From contig NZ_CP097128.1 in NCBI RefSeq assembly GCF_023330685.1, positions 1,736,001 through 1,800,000 on the forward strand: 64,000 nt of DNA, in the 5' to 3' direction. This document shows positions 1 through 16,394 of the stretch, piece after piece. The notes beneath the pieces were generated by a model. It was not told the origin of the DNA and did no database searches. It worked only from the letters and a program-made list of their open reading frames with translations. Every line of letters starts with the position of its first letter. Positions within the stretch are counted from its first letter, which is position 1. The translations under genes and the position numbers were made by a program. The stretch is from Conexibacter sp. DBS9H8 (GTDB taxonomy: Bacteria; Actinomycetota; Thermoleophilia; Solirubrobacterales; Solirubrobacteraceae).

Positions 1-650
1 TGCGCCTCGGCGTCGCCGCGACAGGCCTGATCGAGTCCGGCGGCCGGGTGATCGGGGCCGACACGACCGCCGGGCCGGTATTCGCCGGCGCGGTCTGCGT
101 CTGCGCCGGCGTCCGCTCGCGGGCACTGTGTGCCGGGGTCGGGCTCGACCTGCCGCTCACGCCGACGGTGATCGCGCTGCTGACGGTGCCCCGCGCCGTC
201 CCCGGGCACCTCAGTGTGATCGACGCCGCCGGCGGCATCTACTTCCGTCCCGACCCGCCGCAGCAGACGATCGTCGGTCGGCGCGCCTTCGATGACGTCG
301 TCCTCGACGCGCCCGACGACGAGCCCGAGCCGCCGGACTGGTCGTTTATGGACGCGGCCCTGCCCGCCCTGCAACGGCGGCTTCCCTCGGCCATCGGCGC
401 ACCGGTGATCGCCCGCCGGGCCGGCCAGCTCGACATGACTCCGGACGGCCGTCCGCTCCTCGGTCCGACCGCGCTCCCGGGGCTGTGGCTCTCCTGCGGC
501 TGGAGCGGAACGGGCTTCAAGACCGGACCCTCAGCGGGCCAGCAGCTCGCCCGCTGGCTCGTGACCGGCAGTGCCCCGGACCGGGATCTGGAGGCCTTCT
601 GCATCGAGCGGGTGCCCGAGCCGGCGCGCGGTCCGCGTTCACCGCACTAA
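1..650 (+). CDS. FAD-dependent amine/amino-acid oxidoreductase (DAO family), C-terminal part
   Basis: The gene enters from the left edge; the first whole codon is at position 3 and about 215 residues are visible, ending with TAA. The C-terminal signature of the DAO/sarcosine oxidase beta family is clear: 'MTPDGRPLLGPT' followed by 'LSCGWSGTGFKTGPSAGQQLA', where the glycine-rich segment closes over FAD. The N-terminal Rossmann motif would lie outside the window, so substrate cannot be read. Family members oxidise secondary or primary amines such as sarcosine, N-methylglutamate or D-amino acids. With a GlnT/GMAS-like enzyme and a split glutamate synthase nearby, an N-methylglutamate or amine dehydrogenase role is attractive but is inference. 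Confidence 0.8.
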   Translation, partial: RLGVAATGLIESGGRVIGADTTAGPVFAGAVCVCAGVRSRALCAGVGLDLPLTPTVIALLTVPRAVPGHLSVIDAAGGIYFRPDPPQQTIVGRRAFDDVVLDAPDDEPEPPDWSFMDAALPALQRRLPSAIGAPVIARRAGQLDMTPDGRPLLGPTALPGLWLSCGWSGTGFKTGPSAGQQLARWLVTGSAPDRDLEAFCIERVPEPARGPRSPH

Positions 651-663
651 AAGCGACCCCGGC

Positions 664-2406
664 GTGGATCTCGCCAGGACAGAGCTGATCCGGTTCCTCG
701 GAATGCGCCCACCCTTTGACGCGCTGGCGGCGGACGAGCTCGCCGAGCTTGCCGAGGCGACCGAACTGGAGTTCCATCCGCGCGGCGCGGCGATCCTCAC
801 CGAGGACGGGGGGCCCGTGACCTTTCTGCGGGTGATCAGCGCCGGCGCGGTGCGGATCGTGCACGCCGGCCGGCTGCTTGACCTGCTCGTCAGTGGCGAC
901 AGCTTCGGGCATGATGCGATGCTCGCCGGAATGCCGCCGGGCTTTGAGGCACGGGCGGCTGAGGACACCCTCTGCTACCGGATTCCCGCCGAGAGCGCGG
1001 GGCCGCTGCTCGCCCGAGCCCGCCACGGGATGCTCGCGCTCCGCGCGGGCGACCCGGCGAACCGGGCGGTGACCCATCTCATCCGCACCGCGACGGTGCT
1101 CTGTTCGCCCGAGCAGCCGATCGCCGAGGTGGCCGCGGAGATGACGCAGGCCGGGACCGACGCCGCCCTCGTGCGCCTCGAGCGACACCCTGCCGGGCCG
1201 CCCGAGGCCGGCGGCTGGGTGGACGGGTTCGGGATCGTCACCGACCATGATCTGCGCAGCCGGGTGCTCGCCGCCGGGGTCAGTGCAGAGGCGCCCGTCG
1301 GCTCGATCATGACCACCCCGGTGTTCACCGTCACCCCCGACCGGCTCGGTGCGGAGGTGATGTTCGCGCTCCTGGAACGCGGCCTCCACCACGTCCCGGT
1401 CCTCACCCGCAGCGGCCAGGTAGTCGGAATCGTCTCCGACAGCGACCTCAGCGCCCCCCGGGAGCGGGCCTGGTTCAGGATCCGGCGCCTGATCGACGCC
1501 GCCGGCGACCAATCGGGGCTGGCGGCCGCATCGAAGACGATCATGCCGGTCCTCATCGACCTCCACCGGGCGGGCGTGGCGGCGCTCGCCATCGCCCGGG
1601 TCCTCTCGGCGCTCACGGACGCGCTGATCGTCCGCGCCCTCGAGCTCAGCGGCGCCGCTCCCAGTCCGGAGTGCCCGTCGCTGTGGCTCGCGCTCGCCGG
1701 CCACGCTCGCCGTGAGCTGACGCCCGCCTCCGGACCGATCGCCGCGAGCGTCGGTGCCCGCATCCCGGTCCCGGTCCCGGCCCCGGCTACGTCGCTTGCG
1801 GCGCTGCTCGGCGCCTGCGGGATACCCGACCCCGTCCCCGCACAGACCGCGCCGGAGTGGGTGCGCGGAGCTCTCGCCGGCGATCCACTCGCCCGCCTCG
1901 TCCTCTGTGACCGCCGTCCCCTCGCCGGTCCGCCGGCTCTGCTGCCCGACGGTGTCGAGACAGATTCGCTGCGCGAGGTCCTGCTGCGCCTGCTCGCCGA
2001 GGAGTGTCTCAGGCTCACCGTCCCGACGGGCTTTGACCGGTCCGGGCTGCTGCTGCATCCCGACGACCGGCGCGCCGAGGAGCTTGACATCGCCACGGCG
2101 GCCGTCGTGCCGATTGAGGCGCTCGCGCGCTGGGGTGGCTGGGCGGCAGGGGAGACCGGGGCGGGGACGCCCGAACGGCTCGCGGCGACGGCGGAGCTCG
2201 GCCTGATCGACGCCGCGGACGCGCGGGCGCTCACGGAGGCGTTGACGCTCGCCTTCGAGCTGCGGATGGGCCATCAGCTCGAGTGCATCAGCGCCGGCGT
2301 CCCCCCCGACGACCGGATCGACGTGGCCACCCTCAGCCCGTTCACGCGCAGCCAGCTCCGCGAGGTCTTCCTCACCATCTCCGCCGTCCAGCGACGGCTT
2401 CGATGA
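664..2406 (+). CDS. cNMP-binding/CBS-pair/DUF294 protein with degenerate nucleotidyltransferase domain
   Basis: About 580 aa from GTG 664, chosen because the following residues fit the family N-terminus; codons further upstream fall inside the preceding gene. Domains in order: cyclic-nucleotide-binding fold (residues ~10-110), two CBS motifs (~140-270, ending 'VVGIVSDSDL'), DUF294 nucleotidyltransferase region (~335-480) and conserved C-terminal helical domain. The nucleotidyltransferase motif, usually GS..R followed by D.DN, reads 'LAGHARRELTPASGPIAAS': the Gly-Ser and both Asp are gone and the domain is shorter. The paralogue at 11447 keeps them. This copy is therefore probably a sensor or regulatory protein without transferase activity. 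Its stop overlaps the next start by 4 bp (ATGA), so it is coupled to the exonuclease gene. Confidence 0.85.
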   Translation: MDLARTELIRFLGMRPPFDALAADELAELAEATELEFHPRGAAILTEDGGPVTFLRVISAGAVRIVHAGRLLDLLVSGDSFGHDAMLAGMPPGFEARAAEDTLCYRIPAESAGPLLARARHGMLALRAGDPANRAVTHLIRTATVLCSPEQPIAEVAAEMTQAGTDAALVRLERHPAGPPEAGGWVDGFGIVTDHDLRSRVLAAGVSAEAPVGSIMTTPVFTVTPDRLGAEVMFALLERGLHHVPVLTRSGQVVGIVSDSDLSAPRERAWFRIRRLIDAAGDQSGLAAASKTIMPVLIDLHRAGVAALAIARVLSALTDALIVRALELSGAAPSPECPSLWLALAGHARRELTPASGPIAASVGARIPVPVPAPATSLAALLGACGIPDPVPAQTAPEWVRGALAGDPLARLVLCDRRPLAGPPALLPDGVETDSLREVLLRLLAEECLRLTVPTGFDRSGLLLHPDDRRAEELDIATAAVVPIEALARWGGWAAGETGAGTPERLAATAELGLIDAADARALTEALTLAFELRMGHQLECISAGVPPDDRIDVATLSPFTRSQLREVFLTISAVQRRLR

Positions 2407-3080
2407 GAGCCCCCTCACGCCGCACCCCGGCGGTGGCCCGCTACCGCCAGCACGGGCGGCCACAGATGCGCACCCCCTGGAATGAGGCGGAGTGGTGTGC
2501 TGTCGATCTCGAGCTCACCGGGCTCGATCCGGGCGCCGATCAGATCGTCGCCGCCGGCCTCGTCGTGGTGAGCGGCGGACGCGTCCAGCTCGGCCTGGCC
2601 CGCTACAGCCTCGTGGCGACCTCCCGCCGGTCCTCCGTCGCGGCCCTGCTCACCCACCGCGTGCGCGCGGAGGAGCTCGTCGGAGCGCCCACGCTCGATG
2701 AGGTGATGGAGATGGTCATCGACACGCTCGCCGGTCGCGTGCCGATCGTCCACCACGCGAGCGTCGAGCGGTCGTTCCTCGCCCCTCCGCTCGCCCGGCG
2801 GGGTGTGCGGATGCCGCCGGTCGCCGACACCGAGCGGCTCGGGCACCGCTGGTTGGCGCGCAGTCGCGGCGACGGTCCGCCCGCGCTCTCGCTGCCGGCG
2901 CTCGCGGCGGCGCTCGGGCAGACCGCCGAGCCCGCCCACCACGCGCTCGCCGACGCGATCTCGACCGCCGCCGCGTTCATCGCCCTGGCGACGCTGTGGG
3001 GGGGACACGGACGGCCCCCGACCGTCGGCGAACTGCTCGACGCGAGCGCCGACCCGCACGCGGAGCGGACCGGCCGCTGA
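2403..3080 (+). CDS. DEDDh 3'-5' exonuclease (DNA polymerase III epsilon-like)
   Basis: 225 aa from ATG 2403, which overlaps the upstream stop as ATGA and indicates translational coupling. Exo I motif 'AVDLELTGLDP' gives the catalytic D and E, and the Exo III motif 'HHALADAISTA' gives the histidine and last aspartate; 'HHASVERSFL' fits Exo II. It is a stand-alone proofreading-type exonuclease rather than a polymerase subunit fused to a helicase. Co-occurrence of such an exonuclease with a cNMP-CBS-DUF294 protein is a recurring arrangement, but the shared job is not established. Substrate could be DNA or small RNA. Confidence 0.85.
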   Translation: MRAPSRRTPAVARYRQHGRPQMRTPWNEAEWCAVDLELTGLDPGADQIVAAGLVVVSGGRVQLGLARYSLVATSRRSSVAALLTHRVRAEELVGAPTLDEVMEMVIDTLAGRVPIVHHASVERSFLAPPLARRGVRMPPVADTERLGHRWLARSRGDGPPALSLPALAAALGQTAEPAHHALADAISTAAAFIALATLWGGHGRPPTVGELLDASADPHAERTGR

Positions 3081-3156: not shown

Positions 3157-4524
3157 TCAGAACAGCTGGAGGTAGCGGTCGAGCTCCCACTGGGTGATCT
3201 GCACGTGCGCCTCCCGGGCCTCGGCCTGCTTGACGGCGATGAAGTAGTCGAGGTAGTCCCCCTTGGGTCCACTGCCGAAGGCGTCGCGGAGGACCGCGTC
3301 CCCAGCAAGCTCTCGGGTCGCGTCAAGGAGGTTCTCCGGCAGCATCGCGATGCCCGCCGCGGCCCGGGATGCGGGCGTCGACTCATACAGGTTGAGCTCA
3401 TTGGGGGCGCCCGCGTCGAGTTCGCGCTGCACGCCGTCAAGGCCGGCGGCGAGGATCGCCGTCGCCGCGAGGTACGGGTTGTTGGACCCGTCAACGGTGC
3501 GATCCTCGATCCGGCCCGGCCCGGGGACCCGCAACATCTGCGTGCGGTTGTTGTGCCCGTAGGAGACGTACACCGGCGCCCAGCTCGCCCCGCTCGTCGG
3601 GGCGCCCGCGTTGAGACGCTTGTAGGAGTTGACCGTCGGCGCGGTGATCGCGATGTAGGCCCGGGCATGTTCCTTGAGCCCGCCGATGAAGTGGTAGCCG
3701 AGCGGGGAGATCCCCAGGCCGTGCGGATCGGTCGCTGGATCCGCGTCAAAGACGTTCTCACCGTCCTTCCACAGGCTGAGATGGAAGTGGCAGCCGTTTC
3801 CGGTGAGATGCCCGAACGGCTTGGGCATGAAGGTCGCGAGCATGCCCCGCTGCTGGGCGAGGGACTCGACCATGTAGCGGAAGAAGATCGCCCGGTCACA
3901 GGTGGTGAGCGCGTCCGCGAAGGTGAAGTTCTGCTCGAACTGGCCGTTGGCGTCCTCATGGTCGGTCGCATAGCCGTCCCAGCCGAGCGTCTCCAGGGCA
4001 CGGGCGACCGTCGTGACGAAGTCGAGGCTGCGGGTGAGCGCACGCATGTCATAACAGGGCTGATCGAGGGTGTCGAGCTCGTCGGCGAGCCCGAGCGCCC
4101 CGGAAGGGTCGCGTCGGAGGAGGAAGTACTCGAGCTCGGCGCCGACCTTCAACTCGTACCCGGCGCTCGCCGCCCGGGCGAGGGCCCGGCTGAGGATCGT
4201 GCGCGGACAGTACGGCCAGGGCTCCCCTTCGACCTGCAGGTTGCAGGCGAAGCGGGCGACGTTCGGCTGCCAGGGGAGGATCGTCAGGCTCGCCGGATCG
4301 GGAACGGCGCTGATGTCGGGGTCGGCGGGAGTCTGGGCGATCGCTCCCGCGGCGGCCCCGGCAAAGCCCGCCCCCTCCGTCAACAGGGCATCGAGGTGCG
4401 TGGCGGGCACGAGCTTGGCGTTCGGCTTGCCGTGCATGTCGACGAACTGGGCGAACAGGAACTCGATGCCCTTGTCAGCGACGATCTTGGCGACGTCGTC
4501 CGGATTCTGGGGTGCGGTGCTCAT
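3157..4524 (-). CDS. glnT: GlnT/GMAS-type glutamine synthetase family protein
   Basis: 455 aa from ATG 4524; the in-frame extension to 4608 is not family-like. Glutamine synthetase fold: N-terminal beta-grasp ('FAQFVDMHGKPNAKLVP') and catalytic domain with 'GAELEYFLLRR', 'HEDANGQFEQNF', 'GNGCHFHLSLW' and the C-terminal 'RIEDRTVDGSNNPYLA', which supply the metal- and ATP-binding residues. Length and motifs match the GlnT group, which includes gamma-glutamylmethylamide synthetase (ATP-dependent joining of glutamate to methylamine) as well as true glutamine synthetases. The split glutamate synthase-like genes at 13.5-16.4 kb, two PucR regulators and a permease nearby favour an amine substrate. 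Divergent from a PucR-type regulator over an 86-bp gap with a perfect dyad. Confidence 0.85.
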   Translation of the reverse strand: MSTAPQNPDDVAKIVADKGIEFLFAQFVDMHGKPNAKLVPATHLDALLTEGAGFAGAAAGAIAQTPADPDISAVPDPASLTILPWQPNVARFACNLQVEGEPWPYCPRTILSRALARAASAGYELKVGAELEYFLLRRDPSGALGLADELDTLDQPCYDMRALTRSLDFVTTVARALETLGWDGYATDHEDANGQFEQNFTFADALTTCDRAIFFRYMVESLAQQRGMLATFMPKPFGHLTGNGCHFHLSLWKDGENVFDADPATDPHGLGISPLGYHFIGGLKEHARAYIAITAPTVNSYKRLNAGAPTSGASWAPVYVSYGHNNRTQMLRVPGPGRIEDRTVDGSNNPYLAATAILAAGLDGVQRELDAGAPNELNLYESTPASRAAAGIAMLPENLLDATRELAGDAVLRDAFGSGPKGDYLDYFIAVKQAEAREAHVQITQWELDRYLQLF

Positions 4525-4542
4525 CGTCTCAGAGGTATATGT

Positions 4543-4610: not shown

Positions 4611-6335
4611 ATGAGCGATCCGGTGGCCCACTCCTCTGACGACCGCGGTCTTGCCGCGGAGAACGCCACGCTCTACCGCGTCATCCGGCTCGTCTCCAGC
4701 TCCCTTGAGCTCGGCCCGATGCTCGCCGGGATCGTTGAGATCGCGACGGAGGCGACCGCCTGCCACGCCTGCTTCATCTACCTCGTCGACGGGGACACGG
4801 TGACGATCCGGGCCGCCTCCCCGGTCTTCAGCGAGGCCGTCGACGCGGTCAGCTTCTCCGTCGAGGAGGGACTCACCGGCTGGGTCGTCCGGCACCGGCG
4901 CTCGGCCTTTCTCCGCGACGGCCTGGCCGACGATCCCCGCAGCAACTACGTGCCGTTGCTGCGGGAGGAGGACTTCCAGTCGATGGTCGCCGTGCCGATC
5001 CTCAGCCGCGGAGGGGAGGCGATCGGGGTGATCGTGCTGCACACCCGCGCCCCTCACGAGTTCGGTGAGGACGTGCTCAACCTGCTCGAGCACATCGCTT
5101 CGCTCGTGTCCGGGGCGATCGAGAACGCGCAGGCATACGACCGTGAGCGCCGCCGCGTCGATGTCCTCACCGGCATCGCCGCGCTCACGGAGCAGGTCTC
5201 CGGATCCGTCGGGACCGGCGCGCTCGCCGCGACCGTCACCGGGGGAGCCCGGGCGCTGCTCGGGGCCGGCCGCTGCTCGCTCTACCGGCTCACCCGAGAG
5301 GGCACGGCCGTCGAGCTGCTCGCCCGCGCTCCCGAGGACGCGGCCGCCCCCGTCGCCCGGACCCCGGCGGACCTGCTGATGGACCCCGCTCTGCTGACGA
5401 TCCCGCTGATCGCCGGGGAGGAGCCGCTTGGGATGCTCGCCTGCGCTCCCGCCGCCGACCGTGAGTTTCGCCGTGAGGAGCGGGAGATCGCCCGGGCGAT
5501 CGCGCACCTGGCGGCGGTCGCGCTCACCCGGGTCGCCCTCATCGAGGACCTGACGACGACCAACACGGTCAAGGATCTGTTTGAGGCGCTCGCCGCGGGC
5601 AACGCCGAGTTCGCCGCCGCCAAGGCCGGGGAGCTGCGCTGCGATCTCTCCCGGCCCTACGTGATCGCCTGTGCGACCCCGGCGGGCGGGGGCGACACCT
5701 CCGCAGCAGACTGGAGCGCCACCGCAGAGCGGGTCGGCCTCGCCCTCGCCCAGCGGGCGTCCCGCACGGCCGTGGAGGCCGGACCCGGTCCGGTGCGGGC
5801 GCTGATCGTGCTCGACCACCCGGCCCGTGAGCGGGCGGAGGCGCTGTTGGAGGACAGCCGGGCAGTCGGGGCCGAACACGGCGTCGCGCTTGGCCTGTCC
5901 GGCGTCCACCACGGCGCGGAGGAGCTCGTGCGCTGCCACCGGGAGGCGGTCGATGCCGCGACGATCGGCCGCGCCCTTGTCGGGGCCGGCGGCGCGGTCG
6001 GGTACGGTGCCCTCGGCGCCTACCGCTATCTCGTCCACATCGCGCCCGAGGACACGCCGCAGGATCGCATGCGCGACGCCGTCGACCTCCTGATCGACTA
6101 CGACCGGCGCCGGCGCACCGCGCTGCTCGACACGCTCGAGCGCTACCTCTCAGAGCGCCAGTCGGTGATCGAGTCGGCCCGTCAGCTCTACGTGCACCCG
6201 AACACGCTGCGCCAGCGGCTCGCCCGGATCGAGGAGCTGACCGGCCTGTCCCTCGAGCACGACGATCTGCTCTCCCTCGAGCTGGCGATCAAGCTCGCCC
6301 GGCTGCACCGTCGCCCGCTGCCAGCAGCGGGTTGA
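4611..6335 (+). CDS. GAF-domain PucR/CdaR-family transcriptional regulator
   Basis: 574 aa. Order: GAF domain (~25-180, with 'VEEGLTGWVVRHRRSAF'), a second GAF-like segment (~190-320), CdaR/GGDEF-like domain (~330-470) and C-terminal PucR helix-turn-helix (~505-565, 'RQLYVHPNTLRQRLARIEEL'). GAF-PucR regulators respond to small ligands and commonly control purine, polyamine or gamma-aminobutyrate-type nitrogen catabolism. It is divergent from glnT, so it probably controls that gene and itself. The ATG has no Shine-Dalgarno; a TAGCAT hexamer sits at 4590-4595, so the leader is very short. The 3' end overlaps the convergent second PucR gene by 47 bp. Confidence 0.85.
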   Translation: MSDPVAHSSDDRGLAAENATLYRVIRLVSSSLELGPMLAGIVEIATEATACHACFIYLVDGDTVTIRAASPVFSEAVDAVSFSVEEGLTGWVVRHRRSAFLRDGLADDPRSNYVPLLREEDFQSMVAVPILSRGGEAIGVIVLHTRAPHEFGEDVLNLLEHIASLVSGAIENAQAYDRERRRVDVLTGIAALTEQVSGSVGTGALAATVTGGARALLGAGRCSLYRLTREGTAVELLARAPEDAAAPVARTPADLLMDPALLTIPLIAGEEPLGMLACAPAADREFRREEREIARAIAHLAAVALTRVALIEDLTTTNTVKDLFEALAAGNAEFAAAKAGELRCDLSRPYVIACATPAGGGDTSAADWSATAERVGLALAQRASRTAVEAGPGPVRALIVLDHPARERAEALLEDSRAVGAEHGVALGLSGVHHGAEELVRCHREAVDAATIGRALVGAGGAVGYGALGAYRYLVHIAPEDTPQDRMRDAVDLLIDYDRRRRTALLDTLERYLSERQSVIESARQLYVHPNTLRQRLARIEELTGLSLEHDDLLSLELAIKLARLHRRPLPAAG

Positions 6336-7233
6336 GGAGCCGGTGCACCTTGAGCGCGAGGCCGAGCTGCTCGCGGTCGGCGTAGTGGATCGGGTTCAGT
6401 CCCGTCAGGCTGAAGATCCGGTCGAGTCGAGCGGCGACGGTGTGGCGGTGGGCGCGCAGCCGTTCCGCCGTCGCGTTCATGTTGCAGTCCGCGTCGAAGT
6501 AGGCGCACAGGGTGCTGACGAGCTCGGTCTCCTGGCGCGCGTCGTAGGCGAGCAGCGGCGCGACGATCTGGTCGTGAAAGTCACGCAGGCCGGTCGGGTC
6601 GGCGGCGAGCATCCGCAGCAGCAGGCGGTAAGTGCCGCTGCCGATCTCCTCCACCACCCGCTGGCCTGAGCTGCGCACGAGCTCGAGGACGAGTTCGGCC
6701 TCACGCAGCGCCCGGCCGAGGTCGGCGGGGTCGGACTGGTAGCTGGAGATGCCGACGAGCCCGTAGGGGGCGATCCGCCCGGCGAGCGCGCGGACCGCGC
6801 CGAGGCTGCCGGCGATACACGAGCCCGTGCAGGGGAGGACGGCGTACAGCCGCACCGGCTCTCCGATCCGGCTGTGGACGAGCACCTCCTGACAGCCGTC
6901 GGCGATGATCGCGGTGACATAGGCCGGGCGGCGAACCGACAGCTCGACACAGAGCGCCTGGGCACCGAGGCTGAGATCACACCCCAGCTCGGCGGCCCGA
7001 CGGATCACCTCACCCTCTTCGAGGCGCGCGTGCTCGAGGAGATCGTCGATCAGCGAGGCGGCGCCGCCGGGCGCCGCCTCGCTTCCGGGCCGGCCGGAGG
7101 TTCCTCCCGCGACGGCGGTCGCGCTGAGCTGCAACTGCTCGGCGGCCTCACGAACCGCCTCCGCGAGCTGGCTGAGGCGTGCGAGCGCCTCTGACCTCGC
7201 CACCGGCCCGGGGTCCCCGACAGACACGCTCAT
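6289..7233 (-). CDS. PucR-family transcriptional regulator
   Basis: 314 aa. N-terminal helical region, a CdaR/GGDEF-like middle domain, and a C-terminal PucR helix-turn-helix ('ERLRAHRHTVAARLDRIFSL', ~265-290). No GAF domain, unlike the convergent regulator with which its last 47 bp overlap. It follows the ABM-domain gene (7287) on the same strand with a 53-bp gap, so the two may be co-transcribed. Having two PucR regulators back to back suggests two inputs into one nitrogen catabolic set. Confidence 0.82.
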   Translation of the reverse strand: MSVSVGDPGPVARSEALARLSQLAEAVREAAEQLQLSATAVAGGTSGRPGSEAAPGGAASLIDDLLEHARLEEGEVIRRAAELGCDLSLGAQALCVELSVRRPAYVTAIIADGCQEVLVHSRIGEPVRLYAVLPCTGSCIAGSLGAVRALAGRIAPYGLVGISSYQSDPADLGRALREAELVLELVRSSGQRVVEEIGSGTYRLLLRMLAADPTGLRDFHDQIVAPLLAYDARQETELVSTLCAYFDADCNMNATAERLRAHRHTVAARLDRIFSLTGLNPIHYADREQLGLALKVHRLLNPLLAAGDGAAGRA

Positions 7234-7805: not shown

Positions 7806-8112
7806 GTGTGATCCTTTCGCTGAGGGTCCGGGCGCAGCGGCCACCACACGGGTGGCGGTCGCCGACCGTCGGGACGGTAGGCCCGATCCCCCGCGTCGAC
7901 AGCGGACCCGCGGTCGGGAGCGACAGGACCGGAGGTCCGTGTGGCGGGCCGACACACGGACCCGTCCGAATGTGTGCGCCCGAGCCGTTGTCGGTCCGGC
8001 ACATCCTCGACAGCTTCGGGGTCGGGTCACTGGGGCCAGCCGGACCGATTTGCCTCAGTGAACAGCAGTGGCCAGGGCACGGACACAAACGATCGAGAGG
8101 ATGTGGTGGACA
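7806..8112. other. Divergent intergenic region, no gene
   Basis: 307 bp between the ABM-domain gene and the permease. I see no convincing reading frame. It holds the strong dyad at 7934-7962 and a smaller hairpin, GCCACC...GGTGGC, near 7835-7852. It most likely carries both promoters. Confidence 0.6.
7934..7962. promoter_or_regulatory. 10-bp perfect inverted repeat, candidate operator
   Basis: GGTCCGTGTG - 9 nt - CACACGGACC, perfect over 10 bp. It lies about midway between two divergent genes, so a terminator role is unlikely and a regulator site is the simplest reading. One of the two PucR proteins is a candidate binder; this is inference. Confidence 0.55.
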
Positions 8113-9669
8113 GTGGCTGTCGTTCAGGAGGTTGATTCACTCGAGTACGCGCACGCTGGGATGCCGAAGACCGGCAACTGGTGGAGCGCCTTCGTGATCG
8201 GGCTCGCCGGCACGATCCTCGTGACGGGGATCGGGCCGACGATGGTGGTCTCTCTCGGTGCGGCCGCGATCCCGGTGATGGTGCTGATCACCGGCTGTGG
8301 TTGGATCCTCTGCCTGTTGCTGTCGGAGTTGGCGGCGATGATGCCCGAGCGGGCCGGCGGGCTGCCGTCCTACATCTATCCGGCCTTCAAGGATCGCTTC
8401 CCGCGGCTGGCCAAGCACCTCGGGGCCTTCGGCGCATGGGGGTACTGGCTGGGCTGGTTCCCGGTCGCGCCGCTCAACATGATCCTCGCCTCCTACTACG
8501 TCATCGACCTGCTGCACCTCTCCACCGCATCGTTCGCGCCCCTCGGCACAAGCGTCGAGTACTGGGCGGTCGGCATCTCGGTCGTCGGGATCCTGTTGAT
8601 GTTCATCCCCTCCTACATGGGGCTGAAGTTCGGAACCGGCTTTGCCACCGCCCTCGGGCTGCTGGCGATGATCCCGATGACGTTCCTGGCGATCTCCTGG
8701 ATCTTTCACCCCTCCGTCGCCCACTTCGGCCAACTCTTCCACTTCCACCGCACCGACGGCTCGGGTTTCTTCGCCAACATCTACGGGCACAACTGGTTCA
8801 CGGTGTACCTGATGTTCTCGTTCCTGCTCACCTGGAACGTGTTGGCGATGGAGGCGGCCGCCTGCTATGTCGGGGAGATGAAGAACCCGTCCCGGGACGC
8901 GAAGATCGCCCTCAACCTCGAGGGCGGCTACGGGCTGTTCATCTACACGATGATCCCGGTCGCCTTCGTCATCGTGCTCGGTACCAAGGCGCTCGGGTCC
9001 GCCGCACTCGTCGATCCCAAGACGATCTTCATCGACTTCACCTCCAAGGTGTTCGGGACCGGAGCCGGCTCGGAGGCGCTGAAATGGGTAATCGCCCTGA
9101 TGCTGATCATCGCACTCGTGCTGTCGGCGCTCAACGCGATCACCGGCACGGCCCGCTCGCTGCACCAGATGTCCGTCGACGGGAACTTCCCCCGCTTCTT
9201 TCAGAAGCTCAACCGGCACGGAGTGCCCTCGGGCGGCATGGCCTTCACCGTCGCCTGCTCGATCGCCGTCGTGTTCATGGGCGGCGCCGTGCAGATCTAC
9301 ACGTTCTCCAACGTCGGCTACCTGATCATCATGATTCCGGTGCTCGTCGCCTACTGGTACCTGCGCCAGTACCGTCCGAACCTGCCGCGTCCGGTTCGGC
9401 TGCCGGAGTTCATGAAGTACGTCGCGCTCGGGATGGCCGTGTTCTTTCTCGTCATCTACTTCTACGGCGGGCCCAAGTACGCCTCCTGCTCCTGCTCGCA
9501 GGCGGGCAAGTCGACGTTGCTGTTCTACTTCCTCGGCTTCGGCGTGCTCGCGCTGTACCTGCCGATGTATCTGTACCGCCGCTACGTCGAGGATCGGCGC
9601 GACCCCGGCGCGGCGGGGGTCGGCCCGCCACTCCAGGTCGACGCCGGCATCGCCGTCGAGGGCGCGTGA
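8113..9669 (+). CDS. APC-family amino acid/amine permease
   Basis: About 518 aa from GTG 8113 (GAGAGG 12 nt upstream); ATG 8161 ('MPKTGNWWSAFVIG') is an alternative and starts right at the first hydrophobic segment. About 12 membrane segments, with the APC signature near the first ('LAGTILVTGIGPTMVVSLG') and a conserved acidic residue after TM6 ('MEAAACYVGEMKNPSRDAK'). It imports a cationic or zwitterionic substrate with protons. The neighbouring glutamine-synthetase-like and PucR genes suggest an amine or amino acid as nitrogen source. Stop and next start overlap by one base (TGATG), so it forms an operon with the universal stress protein. Confidence 0.85.
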   Translation: MAVVQEVDSLEYAHAGMPKTGNWWSAFVIGLAGTILVTGIGPTMVVSLGAAAIPVMVLITGCGWILCLLLSELAAMMPERAGGLPSYIYPAFKDRFPRLAKHLGAFGAWGYWLGWFPVAPLNMILASYYVIDLLHLSTASFAPLGTSVEYWAVGISVVGILLMFIPSYMGLKFGTGFATALGLLAMIPMTFLAISWIFHPSVAHFGQLFHFHRTDGSGFFANIYGHNWFTVYLMFSFLLTWNVLAMEAAACYVGEMKNPSRDAKIALNLEGGYGLFIYTMIPVAFVIVLGTKALGSAALVDPKTIFIDFTSKVFGTGAGSEALKWVIALMLIIALVLSALNAITGTARSLHQMSVDGNFPRFFQKLNRHGVPSGGMAFTVACSIAVVFMGGAVQIYTFSNVGYLIIMIPVLVAYWYLRQYRPNLPRPVRLPEFMKYVALGMAVFFLVIYFYGGPKYASCSCSQAGKSTLLFYFLGFGVLALYLPMYLYRRYVEDRRDPGAAGVGPPLQVDAGIAVEGA

Positions 9670-10220
9670 TGAGCGCCCTCGGGCAGGCGGCTCGGCGCAC
9701 GCGCCAGCGGGCGATCCGGCTCGGCGCCGGAGACGGACGGCTCGCCGGGGCGCGGGTCCGCGGGCCGATTCCCGCCGACCGTCGGGCCGAGGTGCTGCTG
9801 GCGAGCGAGGGACGGCCGTTCTCGGCCGCGAGCATTGTGCTCGCGGCCGAGCTGGCCGCCGGTGGGGAGGGCGGCGTGCTCGTCCTGTCGATGGCCCGGG
9901 TCCATGGCGTCGCGCTCGGGCTGCCCAACCCCGGTCTGATGCCGACCAAGGCCGAATGGGAGGAGCAGCGTGACATCGTCGCCCGGGCGGTGAAGCGCCT
10001 GCGGCGCCAGGGGGTGGAGGCCGAGGGCCAGGTTCTCGGGACGCGGAACCCGGCCAAGCGGATCTGCGCGCTCGCGGAGGAGGTCGGCGCCGGCGCGATC
10101 GTGATGGGGGCCGACCCGAACGTCAACCGGCTCGTCGGGCCGATGCTCTGGTCCCAGGAGCCCCAGCAGGTCAAGCGGCGGGCGGCGGTCCCGGTGCACC
10201 TGGTCGACGATGGCCAGTGA
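9669..10220 (+). CDS. Universal stress protein (UspA) family
   Basis: 183 aa from ATG 9669, overlapping the permease stop by one base. USP-type alpha/beta fold: 'EVLLASEGRPFSAASIVLAA' for the first strand and helix, and 'GAGAIVMGADPNVNRL' for the fourth strand and the nucleotide loop; the usual G..G....G(S/T) ATP loop is not well kept. N-terminal ~30 residues are basic and extra. Stand-alone USP proteins coupled to permeases often modulate the transporter, which is the likely role. Confidence 0.75.
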   Translation: MSALGQAARRTRQRAIRLGAGDGRLAGARVRGPIPADRRAEVLLASEGRPFSAASIVLAAELAAGGEGGVLVLSMARVHGVALGLPNPGLMPTKAEWEEQRDIVARAVKRLRRQGVEAEGQVLGTRNPAKRICALAEEVGAGAIVMGADPNVNRLVGPMLWSQEPQQVKRRAAVPVHLVDDGQ

Positions 10221-11404
10221 GGTCCGGACGACCTGTCCGCGTGACTGCTACGACGCCTGCGGGGCCGTCGTCCGGGTGCGGGACGGGGCGATGTCCACGT
10301 CCGCGGCGATCCGCAGCACCCGGTCAGCCGCGGTCGGCCGGGCTCCGGGTTTTTCTACCTCAACGGCGCCGAGAGCCGGTGCATCGACGAGAGGTACCGG
10401 TCCGGGGCCGAGGTGTTCTGCGACGTTCCCGGCCCCGCGTCCCTGATGGAGCTCGCCGACATGCTCGCCGACCCGCAGCGATCCCGCGCCCTTGTCTGCT
10501 CGAACGTCAACCCGCTCAGCTCGCACCCCGAACAACGGCGGTTGACAGCCGCCCTCCGCCGCGAGGATTCTTCACGGTCGTCTGGGACCTGTTCGCCACC
10601 GACACCTGCGACTATGCCGACGTCGTGCTTTCGGCCGCCAGCTGGCTCGAGTGCGATGACCTCGTCGTTCCCTACTTCCACCGCTGCCTCTCCGCTCAGG
10701 TCAAGGCCGTCGAACCGATCGGTGCGGCGCTTCCCAACAGTGAGATCTTTCGATGCCCGGCGGCGGAGATCGATGTCCCGGGCGCGCCCAAGGCGGTCTT
10801 GGGGGAGCCGGATGAGAGCGTGCTCGCCGAGATCCTCGACCGGGCCAACGTCGGCATGTCCTTCACCGAGCTCGCGCTCGCCGGGACGGTCTGGCCGTCG
10901 TCCGAGCCGGTCACTCCGTTCGATCGTGACGCCTCGTTGGCCTTCCCGACCCCGAGTGGACGGATCGAGCTCGTCTCAGAACCGGCGCGCCGCGACGGGC
11001 ACGGTGTGATCGCCGTTCCCGACGGGGATCCCCGCCCGCAGGGCAGGCGACTGCGCCTGCACTCCCCGGCCGCGGCGGCATCGCTGAACTCGATGTTCGC
11101 CACCGACGCCCGCGCCGCCGGGCGAGGCGCGCCGACGCCGACGTCGACGCTGTCGCTGAGCCTGGCCGCCGCTGACGCTGACGCCCGCGGCCTCACCGCC
11201 GGCGCGCTCGCCCGGGTCGTCAGTGCCGCCGGCAGCCTCGCCCTCCCCGTCAGGATCAGCCCCGATCTGCCCGCAGGGGTCGCGCTCATCCCCAAGGGCG
11301 GCTGGCCCAAACTGATCGGCGGGGCGAACGTCAACGCGTTGACGACGTCCCAGCCCACCGACATGGCCACAGCTCAGCCGTGCACGGGCTCGAGGTCACC
11401 GTGA
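10210..11404 (+). pseudogene. Decayed molybdopterin-dependent oxidoreductase
   Basis: Three pieces of a formate-dehydrogenase/nitrate-reductase-like protein lie in different frames. First, 10210-10300 encodes the 4Fe-4S N-terminus 'TTCPRDCYDACGAVVRVRDG'. Second, from ~10348 the frame beginning 'GFFYLNGAESRCIDERYRSG' runs to 'ALVCSNVNPLSSHPEQRRL' at ~10560. Third, 'FTVVWDLFATDTCDYADVVL' continues in another frame to a C-terminal molydopterin-binding domain ending at 11404. Intact relatives are near 650-750 aa; here some 300 codons between pieces one and two are missing, and there is a frameshift near 10560. The gene cannot make an enzyme. It begins inside the last codons of the USP gene, suggesting it was once part of that operon. 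Confidence 0.8.
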
Positions 11405-11446: not shown

Positions 11447-13333
11447 ATGACCGGGGACGGCAATGACCCGGCCGGTGTCGCGCGGATCCTCGAGCGCACC
11501 CCGCCCTTTGACGGAATCTCAGAGGAACAGCGGCTGACCCTGGCGGCCTCCGCCCGCCTCGTCACCTATCCGCCGGACACGGCCGTGCTCGTGGAGGACG
11601 GGACGCCCGCCGTCGGGATGTGGGTTCTCATCAGCGGATCGGTCGAGTTGCTCCACGACGGTCGGCAGGTGCTTGTGCTCGAACCGGGCGGCTGCTTCGG
11701 TCATCCGTCGTTGCTGACGGGGATGGCGCCCGCCTACACCGTCCGCACCCGGGAGGTCGTCCGCTGCCTCCAGCTCGCCCCCGGGCCGGCCCGCGCGGCC
11801 CTCGCCAGCCCGGCCGGGGTCGCCTTCGTCGCCGACAGTCTGCGCGCCCGGCTCGTCCGGCAGGGGTATGCCGCCCAGCTTGTGCGGGATGTCGGCACGA
11901 CCCCGGTCTCGGCGATCATGGCCCCGGCCCGCTTCCTCCCGCTCGAGGCGACCGTCGCCGACGCCCTCTCCGATCTGCACCGGTCCGGGGGCGGCGCTCT
12001 GCTGATCGGCACTCCCGACGACGCGGTCGCGCTGCTCACCGACGCGGACATCCGCGGCGCGCTCGCCGAGGGACGGCTCCGGCTCGACGCGCCCGCCCGG
12101 TCGCTCGGCGGCCCGGTGCCGACCACGTCGGTCCACCAGCTCGCCGTGGAGGCGGCGGTCGACATGCTCGCGGCCGGGGTCAGTGCGATCGCGGTCACCC
12201 GCGGGGATCCTCCGAGCCGAGAGGGACCGATCCTCGGCATTCTCACCGCCGCCGAACTCGTCGGCCTCGACGTCACGAGCCCGATCGCGCTCCGGCACAC
12301 CATCCTCGGCGCCGCCGATGAAGCCGGCCTCATCCGCTCGGCCGAGCACCTTCCCCGCCTGTTCGTCCTGCTCGAGCGGGCCGGGGTTCCGCCCCGCGAC
12401 CTCGGGCGCGTGCTGAGCCTCCAGCACGACGCGATCGTCGCTCGCCTGATCGACCTGTCCCTCTCCCGGCACGGACACCCCGGGGCGGACGCCGGCCGCG
12501 CGATTGCGTGGTCGTGGCTCGACCTCGGTTCCGCCGCCCGCCGCGAGTTCACCCTCAGCTCCGATCAGGACAACGCCCTCGCCTACGCCGACCCGCCGGC
12601 GGGCTCCGAGGCCGCGACCGACGAGTACTTTGCCCGCCTCGGCGTCGAGGTCAACGACGGCCTCACCCGCTGTGGCTTCGGGGTCGACCACAACGGGGTG
12701 CTTGCCTCGACGCCGCTGTGGCGGATGTCCAAGGCGGGGTGGGTGGCCACCTTCGACGCCTGCTTCGCCCACCCCGACGAGTCGCACATGATCCGGGCCA
12801 GCGTCGCCTTTGACTTTCGCAGCGCGGCGGGCGGGCTCGGACTCAGCGCCGAGCTGGCCGGCCGGATCCGGGCGACCCGCGGTCACCCCGACTTCATGCG
12901 GCTCATGGCCCGCGTCGGGGCTGCGACCCCGGTCGCGCTCAACCGCCGGGGACGGCTGCTCACCGGTCAGTTCGACGCGCCGTCGGACCGCCTCGACATC
13001 AAACGCGGCGGGATCATTCCCCTCGTCAACCTTGTCCGTTTCCACGCGCTCGCGGCCGGCGTGACGATCTCCCCGACCCTCGACCGGATCGAGGCCGCCG
13101 CGAGCAGCGGCGCCCTCGACGCGGAGGTCGGCGCCGAACTGCGTGAGGCCTTCGACGTGATCACCCGGCTGCGCTTTGCCCACCATGCCCGACAGATCGA
13201 GGCGGGCCGTCCGCCCGACAACCTGATCGACCCGTCCGAGCTCGGTCCGATCACCCGTGGCGACCTCGAGACGGCGCTCCGTTCGGTCCGCTCGGCCCAG
13301 CGCCGGATCGACGTCCTCGGCGGCGGTCGCTGA
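11447..13333 (+). CDS. cNMP-binding/CBS-pair/DUF294 nucleotidyltransferase-like protein
   Basis: 628 aa. Domains: cNMP-binding fold (~8-120, 'LEPGGCFGHPSLLTGMAPAY'), two CBS motifs (~145-275), DUF294 nucleotidyltransferase (~350-490) and DUF294 C-terminal helical domain. The transferase motif is intact: 'LGSAARREFTLSSDQDNALAY' supplies Gly-Ser and the Asp pair for metal binding. Family members are thought to be signal-transduction proteins modifying a partner by nucleotidylation, but substrates are not established. It immediately precedes the GlxBCD-like genes, and its paralogue at 664 lies at the other end of the same nitrogen region, so a role in sensing nucleotide state for this pathway is plausible. 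Confidence 0.85.
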   Translation: MTGDGNDPAGVARILERTPPFDGISEEQRLTLAASARLVTYPPDTAVLVEDGTPAVGMWVLISGSVELLHDGRQVLVLEPGGCFGHPSLLTGMAPAYTVRTREVVRCLQLAPGPARAALASPAGVAFVADSLRARLVRQGYAAQLVRDVGTTPVSAIMAPARFLPLEATVADALSDLHRSGGGALLIGTPDDAVALLTDADIRGALAEGRLRLDAPARSLGGPVPTTSVHQLAVEAAVDMLAAGVSAIAVTRGDPPSREGPILGILTAAELVGLDVTSPIALRHTILGAADEAGLIRSAEHLPRLFVLLERAGVPPRDLGRVLSLQHDAIVARLIDLSLSRHGHPGADAGRAIAWSWLDLGSAARREFTLSSDQDNALAYADPPAGSEAATDEYFARLGVEVNDGLTRCGFGVDHNGVLASTPLWRMSKAGWVATFDACFAHPDESHMIRASVAFDFRSAAGGLGLSAELAGRIRATRGHPDFMRLMARVGAATPVALNRRGRLLTGQFDAPSDRLDIKRGGIIPLVNLVRFHALAAGVTISPTLDRIEAAASSGALDAEVGAELREAFDVITRLRFAHHARQIEAGRPPDNLIDPSELGPITRGDLETALRSVRSAQRRIDVLGGGR

Positions 13334-13457: not shown

Positions 13458-13464
13458 GGCACCC

Positions 13465-14382
13465 ATGTGCGGAATCGCAGGTCTCTACCTGAAGACCCCG
13501 GCGCTCGGTGATCGGCTCGGCGCCGAGCTGTCCAAGATGCTCACCCTGCTGTCTGACCGGGGTCCCGACAGCGCCGGCGTTGCGCTCTACCGTGACCCGG
13601 CTCCGCCCGGGCACGTCAAGCTGTCGCTGCAGGTGATCGACGGAACCTCACCCGGCGCCGACTGGGCGGCGATCTCCGACGGGCTCGGCGAGGCCGTGGC
13701 GGGACCGGTGAGCTTTGAGACGTGCGCCGGCCATGCGATCTTCTTCGTCCCCGGCGACGCTGCGACCGCCCAGGCGTGGCTGAGCCACCACGCTCCGGCC
13801 GTGTCGGTGATGGGCTCCGGGCAGGTGATCGAGATCTACAAGGGGGTCGGCACCCCCCGGGAGGCGCTCGATCGCTTCGGCATCTCCGGCCTCGCGGGCA
13901 GCCACGGGATCGGTCACACCCGGATGGCGACCGAGAGCCGCGTCACCACCGAGGGGAGCCACCCCTTCTCCACGGGCGCGGACCTCTGCCTCGTCCACAA
14001 CGGGTCGCTGTCGAACCACAACCGGCTGCGTCGGGACCTCCAACGCGAGGGGATCGCCTTTGGCACCGACTGCGACTCGGAGGTCGCCGCCGGCTATCTC
14101 ACCTGGCGCCTGCGTGAGGGCGCCACGCTCGAGCAGGCACTCGAGGGCTGCCTCGCCGACCTCGACGGGTTCTTCACCTTCGCGGTCGGGACCGCGGAGG
14201 GCTTTGCCGTGCTCCGGGACCCGATCGCCTGCAAGCCAGCGGTGATGGCCGAGACCGACGACTGGGTGGCGATCGCCTCCGAGTACCGCGCGATCGCCGC
14301 CCTCGAGGGCGCCGAGGATGCGGAGACCTGGGAGCCCGAACCGGGACGGGTCTACAGCTGGGGATCGGCGCTGGTGGCCTGA
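13465..14382 (+). CDS. glxB: Class II glutamine amidotransferase (GlxB / MgsA-like)
   Basis: 305 aa from ATG 13465. The start is fixed by the 'MCGIAGLY' terminus: Cys2 becomes the N-terminal nucleophile that releases ammonia from glutamine. 'LLSDRGPDSAGVALY', 'GHTRMATESRVT' and 'HNGSLSNHNRLRRDL' are the conserved Ntn-amidotransferase segments. It corresponds to the amidotransferase domain of glutamate synthase as a separate polypeptide. In GlxBCD and in the N-methylglutamate synthase MgsABC the three proteins form one complex. First gene of a three-gene operon; the next start overlaps its stop by one base. Confidence 0.88.
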   Translation: MCGIAGLYLKTPALGDRLGAELSKMLTLLSDRGPDSAGVALYRDPAPPGHVKLSLQVIDGTSPGADWAAISDGLGEAVAGPVSFETCAGHAIFFVPGDAATAQAWLSHHAPAVSVMGSGQVIEIYKGVGTPREALDRFGISGLAGSHGIGHTRMATESRVTTEGSHPFSTGADLCLVHNGSLSNHNRLRRDLQREGIAFGTDCDSEVAAGYLTWRLREGATLEQALEGCLADLDGFFTFAVGTAEGFAVLRDPIACKPAVMAETDDWVAIASEYRAIAALEGAEDAETWEPEPGRVYSWGSALVA

Positions 14383-15074
14383 TGGCGACGACCGCGGAGA
14401 CCCACAGCTTCGACCTGCGCGTCGAGTCCGTCCGCGCGCTCAACGCCCTCCTCCATGACCCGCACGGCGGGGCCGTCCGTGTCTGTCATCCGGACGGGGC
14501 CCACGCGCTCGCCGTCGGTCTCAACGCGCCGTGGGAGGTCGAGCTTGACGGGCACGTCGGCTACTACTGCGCGGGCATGAACGCCCAGGCACAGATCACC
14601 GTGCGCGGCAGCGCCGGGGTCGGGCTCGCGGAGAACATGATGTCGGGCCGCGTCGAGGTGTTCGGAAACGCCTCCGGAGCGGCCGGCGCGACCGCCCACG
14701 GCGGGCTGCTCGTCGTCCACGGCGACGCGGCCGCCCGGGCGGGCATCAGCCTCAAGGGGGCGGCGATCGTCGTCGGCGGCTCCGTCGGCCACATGAGCGC
14801 ATTCATGGCCCAGTCGGGAACCCTGCTCGTCTGCGGTGACGCCGGGGAGGGCCTCGGCGACTCGCTCTATGAGGCGGTGATCTACGTACGCGGTCGGGTC
14901 GCCTCCCTCGGCGCCGACTGCGTCGAGCAGGAGCTCGACAGCGACGATCTCGCTCGCATCACGCGGCTGCTCGCCGAGGCGGGAATCGACGGAGCGTCCG
15001 CCGCGGAGTTCCGTCGCTACGGCTCCGCCCGCGAGCTCTACAACTTCCACGTCGACAACGCCGGGAGCTACTGA
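14382..15074 (+). CDS. glxC: GlxC / GXGXG-domain protein of split glutamate synthase
   Basis: 230 aa. Repeated glycine-rich turns ('VRGSAGVGLAENMMSGRVEV', 'GGSVGHMSAFMAQSGTLLVC') are those of the right-handed beta-helix that forms the C-terminal GXGXG domain of glutamate synthase. It is a structural subunit with no catalytic residues. ATG 14382 overlaps the amidotransferase stop (TGATG), and the FMN subunit starts 6 bp after its own stop, so the three subunits should be made in equal amounts. Confidence 0.85.
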   Translation: MATTAETHSFDLRVESVRALNALLHDPHGGAVRVCHPDGAHALAVGLNAPWEVELDGHVGYYCAGMNAQAQITVRGSAGVGLAENMMSGRVEVFGNASGAAGATAHGGLLVVHGDAAARAGISLKGAAIVVGGSVGHMSAFMAQSGTLLVCGDAGEGLGDSLYEAVIYVRGRVASLGADCVEQELDSDDLARITRLLAEAGIDGASAAEFRRYGSARELYNFHVDNAGSY

Positions 15075-15080
15075 TCTGCC

Positions 15081-16394
15081 ATGACGGCACTGCGAGAGTC
15101 AGCCACCTTCGACCGCGCGACGATCGCGGAGATCCAACGTGCGGCCCGGGAGGGGATCTATGAGATCCGCGGGTTCGGCGCCAAGCGCCGGGTGCCGCAC
15201 TTCGACGACCTCCTCTTCCTCGGGGCGTCGATGTCTCGGTACCCGCTGGAGGGCTACCGCGAGCGCTGCGGGACCGGGGTGACCATTGGCGCCCGCCACG
15301 CCCGTGAGCCGGTGGCCCTCGACATCCCGATCACAATCGCCGGGATGAGCTTCGGTGCCCTGTCGGGGCAGGCCAAGGAGGCCCTCGGCCGGGGTGCGTC
15401 GGCGGTCGGGACCTCGACGACGACCGGCGACGGCGGGATGACCGAGGAGGAGCGGGCCCACTCCGACACCCTCGTCTACCAGCTCCTGCCCAGCCGGTAC
15501 GGGATGAACCCCGATGATCTCCGGCGCGCCGACGCGATCGAGATCGTCGTCGGTCAGGGCGCCAAGCCGGGCGGGGGCGGAATGCTGCTGGGCCAGAAGA
15601 TCACCGACCGGGTCGCCGCGATGCGCGATCTGCCGCCCGGCGTCGACCAGCGCAGCGCCTGTCGGCACCCGGACTGGACCGGACCGGATGACCTCGAGAT
15701 CAAGATCCTCGAACTGCGAGAGATCACCGACTGGCGCATCCCCATCTACGTTAAGATCGGCGCGAGCCGGCCATACTACGACGTGACCCTCGCCGTCAAA
15801 TCGGGCGCGGACGCGGTCGTCCTCGACGGCATGCAGGGCGGCACGGCGGCGAGTCAGTCGGTGTTCATCGAGCACGTCGGGATCCCGATCCTCGCGGCGA
15901 TCCCTCAGGCGGTGCGCGCCCTTGCCGACCTCGGTCTGCACCGGGAGGTCCAGTTGATCGTCTCCGGGGGAATCCGCACCGGCGCGGACGTCGCCAAGGC
16001 GCTCGCTCTCGGGGCCGACGCCGTCAGCATCGGCATCGGGGTGCTCATCGCCCTCGGTGACAACGCCCCCGAGTGGGAGGACGAGTACGTCCGCCTCGGC
16101 TCCCACGCGGGCAGCTACGATGCCTGGCAGGCGGGCCGGGATCCAGCCGGGATCACCACCCAGGACCCCGAGCTGGCCCGGCGACTCGATCCGCTCGAAG
16201 GGGGGCGCCGGGTGGCCAACTACCTGCGCGTGCTAACGATGGAGGCCCAGACGATCGCGCGCGCCTGCGGAAAGTCCCACGTTCACAACCTCGAACCGGA
16301 GGATCTCGTCGCGCTCACCGTGGAGGCCGCGGCGATGGCTCGGGTGCCGCTCGCGGGAACGACGTGGATTCCGGGGCTCGTCCCCGGAGCCTGA
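15081..16394 (+). CDS. glxD: FMN-binding glutamate synthase-family protein (GlxD / MgsC-like)
   Basis: 437 aa TIM-barrel matching the central FMN domain of GltB. 'ITIAGMSFGALSGQAKEALG' and 'VGQGAKPGGGGMLLGQKI' are the FMN/2-oxoglutarate segments; 'DAVVLDGMQGGTAASQSVF' and 'VSGGIRTGADVAKALALGAD' complete the phosphate site. A cysteine set for a 3Fe-4S cluster is not obvious, as in GlxD/MgsC proteins. Expected reaction: transfer of glutamine-derived ammonia, or of an amine from gamma-glutamyl amide, to 2-oxoglutarate or glutamate. Together with glnT-like 3157-4524 this forms either an ammonium-assimilation or a gamma-glutamylmethylamide/N-methylglutamate pair. Its 3' end overlaps the convergent transporter gene by 80 bp. 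Confidence 0.87.
   Translation: MTALRESATFDRATIAEIQRAAREGIYEIRGFGAKRRVPHFDDLLFLGASMSRYPLEGYRERCGTGVTIGARHAREPVALDIPITIAGMSFGALSGQAKEALGRGASAVGTSTTTGDGGMTEEERAHSDTLVYQLLPSRYGMNPDDLRRADAIEIVVGQGAKPGGGGMLLGQKITDRVAAMRDLPPGVDQRSACRHPDWTGPDDLEIKILELREITDWRIPIYVKIGASRPYYDVTLAVKSGADAVVLDGMQGGTAASQSVFIEHVGIPILAAIPQAVRALADLGLHREVQLIVSGGIRTGADVAKALALGADAVSIGIGVLIALGDNAPEWEDEYVRLGSHAGSYDAWQAGRDPAGITTQDPELARRLDPLEGGRRVANYLRVLTMEAQTIARACGKSHVHNLEPEDLVALTVEAAAMARVPLAGTTWIPGLVPGA

Follow-up and report, generated by a model that had tools for sequence, protein, structure and literature searches.

A candidate dimethylamine and methylamine pathway with a stand-alone DAO-family oxidoreductase in Conexibacter sp. 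DBS9H8

Gene content of the locus

We analysed a window of 64,000 nucleotides from the genome of Conexibacter sp. DBS9H8 (G000:C1:1736001–1800000; 3.64 Mb in one contig, completeness score 93.6%) that carries a predicted gene island for converting dimethylamine and methylamine to glutamate. The ground left of position 1 was covered by locus L006 (C1:1718001–1738000). A sequence-only reading of the first 16 kb had named a GlnT-type synthetase, GlxB/GlxC/GlxD-like subunits, two PucR regulators, an APC permease and part of a DAO-type amine oxidoreductase; all were present, the DAO gene with its last 215 codons. Left of position 1, where that reading had proposed to look for mgdABCD, we found dmmABC, a EutQ-like cupin gene and the 5′ part of the DAO gene; mgdABCD was not found there. 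The candidate pathway genes are:

C1:1732399–1732851, + strand: EutQ-like cupin, left of the window, beyond dmmC
C1:1732818–1733993, − strand: dmmC (PF11927, 4.2e-62; PDB 5lte, haem-dependent oxidative N-demethylase, 4.4e-88)
C1:1733849–1734784, − strand: dmmB, left of the window, with 2Fe-2S and NAD-binding domains
C1:1734781–1735335, − strand: dmmA, left of the window (NF041259, 105.6 bits, cut-off 60)
C1:1735454–1736650, + strand: whole gene of the DAO oxidoreductase, 398 amino acids, of which window 1–650 is the end; candidate one-subunit N-methylglutamate oxidase or dehydrogenase
Window 3157–4524, − strand: gmaS, GlnT/GSIII family (open frame up to 4608, Met start at 4524; TIGR03105, 593.5 bits, cut-off 469.6)
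Window 13465–14382, + strand: mgsA, GlxB-like class II amidotransferase, starting Met-Cys
Window 14382–15074, + strand: mgsB, GlxC-like, GXGXG/FwdC-type
Window 15081–16394, + strand: mgsC, GlxD-like, with a glutamate-synthase domain (PF01645, 6.8e-91)

The open frames of the DAO gene and dmmA start 118 bases apart, and gmaS lies about 9 kb from mgsA on the opposite strand. The island very probably encodes a dimethylamine/methylamine-to-glutamate pathway in which the nitrogen is kept as glutamate. DmmABC would convert dimethylamine to methylamine and formaldehyde, GmaS would join methylamine and glutamate with adenosine triphosphate (ATP), and MgsABC would turn gamma-glutamylmethylamide into N-methylglutamate. 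The stand-alone DAO would then release glutamate and formaldehyde from N-methylglutamate with flavin adenine dinucleotide (FAD) alone, replacing the four-subunit MgdABCD. We infer the substrate and electron acceptor of the DAO, and the activities of the pathway, from sequence comparison.

Identity of the synthetase and the MgsABC-like subunits

The synthetase was compared with that of Rhodovulum sp. 12E13 (RhGmaS, locus L086). The available part of the report on the crystallised RhGmaS gives as hallmarks of GmaS the lack of the ammonia-site Asp and of the Glu-flap Glu, together with the catalytic residues D177, E186 and R312 (PMC7948447). Of 21 positions checked, 18 were identical in the window protein and RhGmaS, among them K30, A48, D177, E186, N188, W300 and R312; the other three differed (Q175A, W189F and Y191F). 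With Ala at position 48 it has no ammonia-site Asp, and with Trp at 300 no Glu-flap Glu. At these positions, two further synthetases of the genome (L001 and L002) carry Asp and Glu, respectively. A 50-row tree placed the window protein in a 25-row set with RhGmaS (98 in the Shimodaira–Hasegawa-like approximate likelihood ratio test, SH-aLRT), apart from the glutamine synthetase-like rows; the long-branched type-2 rows L065_1 and L169_552 were of unsure placement. The nearest solved structures were 9qur (glutamate--methylamine ligase, 5e-124) and 7cql (RhGmaS, 5.8e-123), followed by glutamine synthetases at 2.8e-78. By residues, tree and nearest structures, the GlnT-type protein is a predicted GmaS, in line with the sequence-only reading, which had called it GlnT/GMAS-like and had named a grouping with true glutamine synthetases as evidence to the contrary; the tree showed no such grouping.

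The same evidence bears on a module for plain glutamine and glutamate assimilation, in which GlnT would be a true glutamine synthetase and the GlxBCD subunits would form a split glutamate synthase. Its NCBIfam name is type III glutamate--ammonia ligase, and the other glutamine synthetase-family genes of the genome show that this annotation is easily transferred. Against such a module stand Ala48 and Trp300, where L001 and L002 keep Asp and Glu, the tree grouping with RhGmaS, and dmmABC next door. On the residue set, the nearest structures and the tree, a true glutamine synthetase was rejected, and we consider the assimilation module extremely improbable.

Position 175 lies in the amine pocket, where the window protein has Ala in place of the Gln of RhGmaS, so that the pocket may be wider. 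This could point to a pathway whose main substrate is another small amine, ethylamine or some polyamine for instance, the DAO then oxidising an N-alkylglutamate other than N-methylglutamate. However, many actinobacterial GmaS proteins have Ala175 (44 of 108 rows; Gln175 occurred in three phylum genomes, L264–L266), dmmABC would yield methylamine, and MgsC is highly conserved with methylotrophs, its homologues in Methylophaga aminisulfidivorans and Methylobacillus gramineus being 78% and 79% identical. We consider another principal amine very unlikely.

The three subunits attributed to MgsABC are separate proteins with an amidotransferase, a GXGXG/FwdC-type and a glutamate-synthase domain. Class II amidotransferases begin Met-Cys. 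A scan of genome contigs with GlxD as the query gave 585 relatives, and the figures given here rest on the best 80 (77–84% identity). GlxB, GlxC and a glutamine synthetase homologue stood beside GlxD in all of these 80 loci, so that the grouping is not a matter of chance. GlxBCD can be regarded as MgsABC-like from these comparisons. The GlxD of the window is of the type that accompanies GmaS in methylotrophs and is distinct from a second GlxD type (about 54% identity, with a glutamine synthetase homologue of about 33%) that exists in some relatives. Loci L180, L181, L016 and L268 hold a second GlnT–GlxBCD set (GlxD about 52–55%, synthetase 30–33%) in genomes that also carry the GmaS–MgsABC type. 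In the synthetase of this second set most GmaS residues are conserved, but position 48 is Val.

The stand-alone DAO

The sequence-only reading had matched the genes to the methylamine pathway, which was largely right for GmaS and the MgsABC-like subunits. The DAO, taken there as related to the MgdABCD dehydrogenase, proved not to be a piece of it but to belong to a separate single-subunit lineage. A search of G000 with the SoxA model for MgdC, the alpha subunit of MgdABCD, gave a GcvT-type half only (131 bits, cut-off 1164). The same half was matched at 33% by MgdC of locus L008, which had no match at E ≤1e-60. An MgdABCD elsewhere in the genome was rejected on these searches.

The DAO proteins that accompany gmaS and mgsABC fell into three types: DAO-A, that of G000 and relatives with 50–54% identity to it; DAO-B, found with a Nocardia query (53–55%); and the SolA-like DAO-C. 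In a 61-row tree, DAO-A and DAO-B formed one clade (97/89), apart from MgdA with SoxB (100/100) and from DAO-C with Escherichia coli SolA (100/100). Equivalents of SolA R51 and K341, which we take to bind the substrate carboxylate in MSOX and SolA, were present in all DAO-A (5/5), DAO-B (8/8) and DAO-C (5/5) rows and absent from DadA, ThiO and HpnW. The position of SolA C308, presumably the site of covalent FAD attachment, was Cys in DAO-C and Gly in 5/5 DAO-A and 8/8 DAO-B rows. The His of the RHD motif, presumably the covalent attachment site of flavin mononucleotide (FMN) in heterotetrameric sarcosine oxidase, was found in 36/36 MgdA/SoxB rows; Pro took its place in 5/5 DAO-A and Ala in 8/8 DAO-B rows. 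A predicted DAO-B model (predicted local distance difference test 84.2, predicted template modelling score 0.88, from 9 sequences) was nearest to chain B of the L-proline dehydrogenase of P. horikoshii and to sarcosine oxidase beta chains, the same proteins to which DAO-A was nearest by sequence. From the residues, the model and these neighbours, the DAO looks like a beta-type subunit working alone and without FMN. A lone beta subunit of MgdA type was unsupported, given the 61-row tree and the missing FMN histidine.

Three other DAO-family proteins were found in G000 (E ≤1e-15). ThiO and a protein of HpnW type, both over their cut-offs, were rejected as last-step enzymes; the third, C1:2571196, was unclassified. 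The DAO of the island is probably a one-subunit N-methylglutamate oxidase or dehydrogenase that acts in place of MgdABCD.

Distribution of the DAO and MgdC

DAO-A occurred in 5 of 146 family genomes (G000, G085, G151, G160 and G174), directly after gmaS in all four relatives (L171, L157, L209 and L164). DmmC occurred in 6 of 146 (G000, G056, G084, G160, G172 and G173); by this distribution DAO-A tracks gmaS more than dmm. Among 26 loci of relatives (L148–L173, of which L162 and L166 are apparently the same contigs as L025 and L026), mgd genes shared a stretch with mgsABC in 12. Family counts were made on the 30 genomes with an MgsC match of at least 75%, with an MgdC threshold of E ≤1e-60. The division into counted and not counted genomes was made by hand and left out G068, G071, G097, G102, G115, G172 and G173, with MgsC matches of only 40–61%. 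MgdC was present in 0/4 DAO-A genomes and 22/26 others (p 0.0026, with genomes treated as independent, which they are not); adding G172 and G173, which both have MgdC, gave p 0.0019. The two enzymes swap within genera: in g1 (G000 with DAO; G098, G103, G104 and others with MgdC), g19 (G151 with DAO; G152 with MgdC) and g24 (G174 with DAO; G172 and G173 with MgdC).

In a phylum sample of 396 genomes, 19 had MgsC at E ≤1e-150. DAO-B was found in five, all among the 19 and all with the gene directly after mgsC. DAO matches of 33–41% in nine further genomes were left out of DAO-B; of these nine, G437 and G251, both with MgdC, belong to the 19. MgdC was present in 0/6 DAO-A/-B genomes and 12/13 others (p 2.6e-4, again treating related genomes as independent). 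Among the genomes scored as lacking MgdC were G000 and G444, with GcvT halves only, and G471. MgsC was only 58% identical in G273 and G251, and GlxB only 36% in G251, so these may be of another type; without both, p was 5.7e-4.

Beyond the Thermoleophilia-like metagenome-assembled genomes, 15 named actinobacterial loci were compared (L009, L011, L012, L013, L017, L022, L023, L029, L035, L036, L045, L053, L069, L076 and L077). DAO-B lay within the gmaS–mgsABC locus in eight and DAO-C in five, where the SolA-like enzyme followed mgsC (with one intervening gene in Cryobacterium); L029 and L076 had neither. The best SoxA-model match was partial in 13 of the 15 genomes and full-length in Sinomonas and Rhodococcus jostii. 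L037, titled Enemella evansiae TN21-6, was dropped; its gmaS–mgs–dmm region looks alphaproteobacterial and is accompanied by two full SoxA genes, and it is probably mislabelled or contaminated.

Several observations weigh against a one-subunit replacement of MgdABCD. G160 carries DAO-A beside gmaS and, on a different contig, a strong match to MgdC (54%, 7.7e-148). This genome (82% complete, 6% contamination, 1060 contigs) stood outside the family count, its contig ending at gmaS and giving no MgsC match; counted as having both enzymes, it raises the family p to 0.0098. Four family genomes with MgsC (G110, G069, G084 and G058, whose contig ends in mgdB) have neither DAO-A nor MgdC, and G444 has MgsC with neither DAO-A/-B nor MgdC. 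G471 shows a 38% MgdC match over residues 395–844 in a 1036-amino-acid frame; taken as MgdC, it gives 1/6 and p 0.0029, or p 0.0054 when G273 and G251 are also removed. DmmC is present in only 2/5 DAO-A genomes, and three genomes combine DmmC with MgdC. The join of DAO-A and DAO-B was flagged as a possible long-branch meeting, the DAO, gmaS and mgsABC genes of G000 are spread across about 17 kb with other genes between them, and kinship among the genomes affects the family and the phylum counts alike.

Some of these observations would fit an ordinary N-methylglutamate pathway: the assembly would lack MgdABCD, or the last step would fall to an unrelated oxidase of the genome, and the DAO would act elsewhere, for example on sarcosine. 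G160 speaks for it, as do the completeness of 93.6% for G000 and the two of the 15 named genomes (Sinomonas and Rhodococcus jostii) in which a DAO at the locus coexists with a full SoxA-type protein. Against it, DAO-A and DAO-B recur in gmaS–mgsABC clusters without MgdC, the swap is seen within three genera, and the other DAO-family proteins of G000 are ThiO, the HpnW type and C1:2571196. We judge the ordinary pathway unlikely. Most Actinomycetota genomes with GmaS and MgsABC have one or the other of MgdC and a stand-alone DAO; G160 is a counter-example. G110 (L150/L183), G069, G084 and G444 may have another last-step enzyme or missing contigs.

dmmABC and the EutQ-like cupin

A DmmA-family protein, the reductase DmmB and a haem N-demethylase-like DmmC lie side by side in G000. 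The sequence-only reading had allowed for an actinobacterial version of the pathway or for another amine; dmmABC left of the window favours methylamine and dimethylamine over ethanolamine or polyamines. In Nocardia salmonicida, Williamsia muralis and Rhodococcus jostii, eutQ–dmmABC occupies one strand and DAO–gmaS–mgsABC the other. The island of G000 has the same genes in another arrangement: eutQ lies beyond dmmC on the opposite strand, and DAO, gmaS and mgsABC are separated by other genes.

No GcvT-domain DmmD was found within the 20-kb locus L006. In a comparison of 20 dmm loci, made with a EutQ profile from actinobacterial rows that could miss distant relatives, a EutQ-like cupin lay near dmmABC in six (G000, L011, L022, L069, L211 and G471), and no GcvT protein was found in any of these. 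A GcvT protein without EutQ was found in 12: ten of proteobacterial type (L037 among them) and two more, L212 and L213, in which it is part of a larger protein about 3 kb away. L210, which ends at a contig edge, and L214 had neither. The contrast had a p of 7.2e-4, but largely follows phylum. G471 (L262/L293) has two dmmABC copies beside EutQ and a DAO-B–mgsABC–gmaS cluster.

In the available part of PMC5520151, DmmD is proposed to hand formaldehyde on to tetrahydrofolate, and activity in E. coli is reported for dmmABC by itself. MgdC also has a GcvT-like half; with neither DmmD nor MgdC, the DAO–EutQ form would be without GcvT domains at both formaldehyde-releasing steps. The occurrence of EutQ beside dmmABC only where a DmmD-type GcvT protein was not found suggests a folate-free variant, and we hypothesize that EutQ replaces DmmD. 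More broadly, Actinobacteria might have a folate-free dimethylamine/methylamine pathway in which a one-subunit FAD enzyme stands in for MgdABCD and a EutQ-like cupin for DmmD, formaldehyde being handled in a new way and the one-subunit replacements having arisen at least twice (the DAO-A/B clade and the SolA-like type). This proposal is tentative and rather doubtful, given that DAO-A and MgdC occur together in G160 and that the distribution of EutQ tracks phylum. A mycothiol-dependent formaldehyde dehydrogenase was rejected, its best match reaching 278.6 bits (cut-off 512.9).

Regulators, permease and history of the island

The remaining features of the island are:

C1:1730409–1731713 (L006:12409–13713), + strand: transposase, just beyond the eutQ–dmmABC–DAO block
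Window 571–2406: cNMP/DUF294 nucleotidyltransferase-like protein with CBS
Window 4611–6335, + strand: GAF-PucR regulator, divergent from gmaS
Window 6289–7233, − strand: second PucR-type regulator
Window 8068–9669, + strand: APC-type permease
Window 9669–10220: universal-stress protein
Window ~10221–11404: molybdopterin oxidoreductase remnant, frame-broken and truncated
Window 11447–13333, + strand: cNMP/DUF294 nucleotidyltransferase-like protein, 5′ of mgsABC

The two DUF294 proteins are the signalling proteins that had been noticed at both ends. Among the 26 relatives' loci, homologues of the GAF-PucR regulator were present in 14, of the APC permease in eight and of the DUF294 protein at 11447–13333 in six. 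The PucR regulators may control the island jointly, and the permease is a possible amine importer. The universal-stress gene is directly 3′ of the permease gene, perhaps on one transcript. Between it and the second DUF294 gene, window 10221–11404 holds only C-terminal molybdopterin oxidoreductase domains, with matches in more than one frame and a low guanine-plus-cytosine content at third positions; this remnant looks like a pseudogene. A scan of L006:13600–19000 for sigma-70-like promoters found none.

G110, of the same genus, keeps the order DUF294–exonuclease–gmaS–GAF-PucR–APC–DUF294–mgsABC, including homologues of both DUF294 proteins, and has histidine-kinase-like and response-regulator genes in the place of dmm and DAO. 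The GmaS of the four DAO-A relatives belongs to a different subclade from the window GmaS in the 50-row tree. The G110 order and the differing subclade suggest that the dmm–DAO block was added to a resident gmaS–mgsABC island. The transposase beside the eutQ–dmmABC–DAO block is a hint of transfer.

Comparison with known systems and implications

The island shares homologues of GmaS and MgsABC, clustered in all 80 best loci, with the N-methylglutamate pathway of GmaS, MgsABC and MgdABCD. It differs in that MgdABCD was not found, the pathway genes are accompanied by a stand-alone DAO from another clade, and regulators, a permease and DUF294 proteins are interspersed among them. With MSOX and SolA, one-subunit oxidases of N-methyl amino acids, the DAO shares the fold, the carboxylate-binding Arg and Lys and the single subunit, whereas DAO-A and DAO-B have Gly at the covalent-FAD Cys and form another clade. 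The dmmDABC genes of Ruegeria pomeroyi and Methylocella, as given in the accessible part of PMC5520151, likewise include dmmA, dmmB and dmmC homologues in a row; in the Conexibacter island no dmmD (GcvT) was found and a EutQ-like cupin adjoins dmmC. Mycobacterium spp. 141 and 155 also have actinobacterial Gma–MgsABC and EutQ-like genes near methylated-amine genes, but in the portion of PMC5023230 (2015) available the last step is assigned to mgdA-D, with gene numbers far from gma–mgs, no separate dimethylamine monooxygenase candidate is given, and the function of the EutQ-like genes is stated as unknown. In the literature searched, which included few subscription papers and is weak evidence on this point, a one-subunit enzyme in place of MgdABCD was not described, and there was no paper under 'N-methylglutamate oxidase' or 'N-methyl-L-glutamate oxidase'.

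If the proposed role of the DAO is true, the final enzyme of methylamine use would be accounted for in actinobacteria that possess GmaS and MgsABC without MgdABCD, and genome surveys that take mgdABCD as the mark of the pathway would need correction. The EutQ-like genes of the Mycobacterium report, as far as its available part describes them, would gain a concrete place, beside dmmABC where DmmD was not seen. Predicted dimethylamine use would also be extended to the largely uncultured Thermoleophilia.

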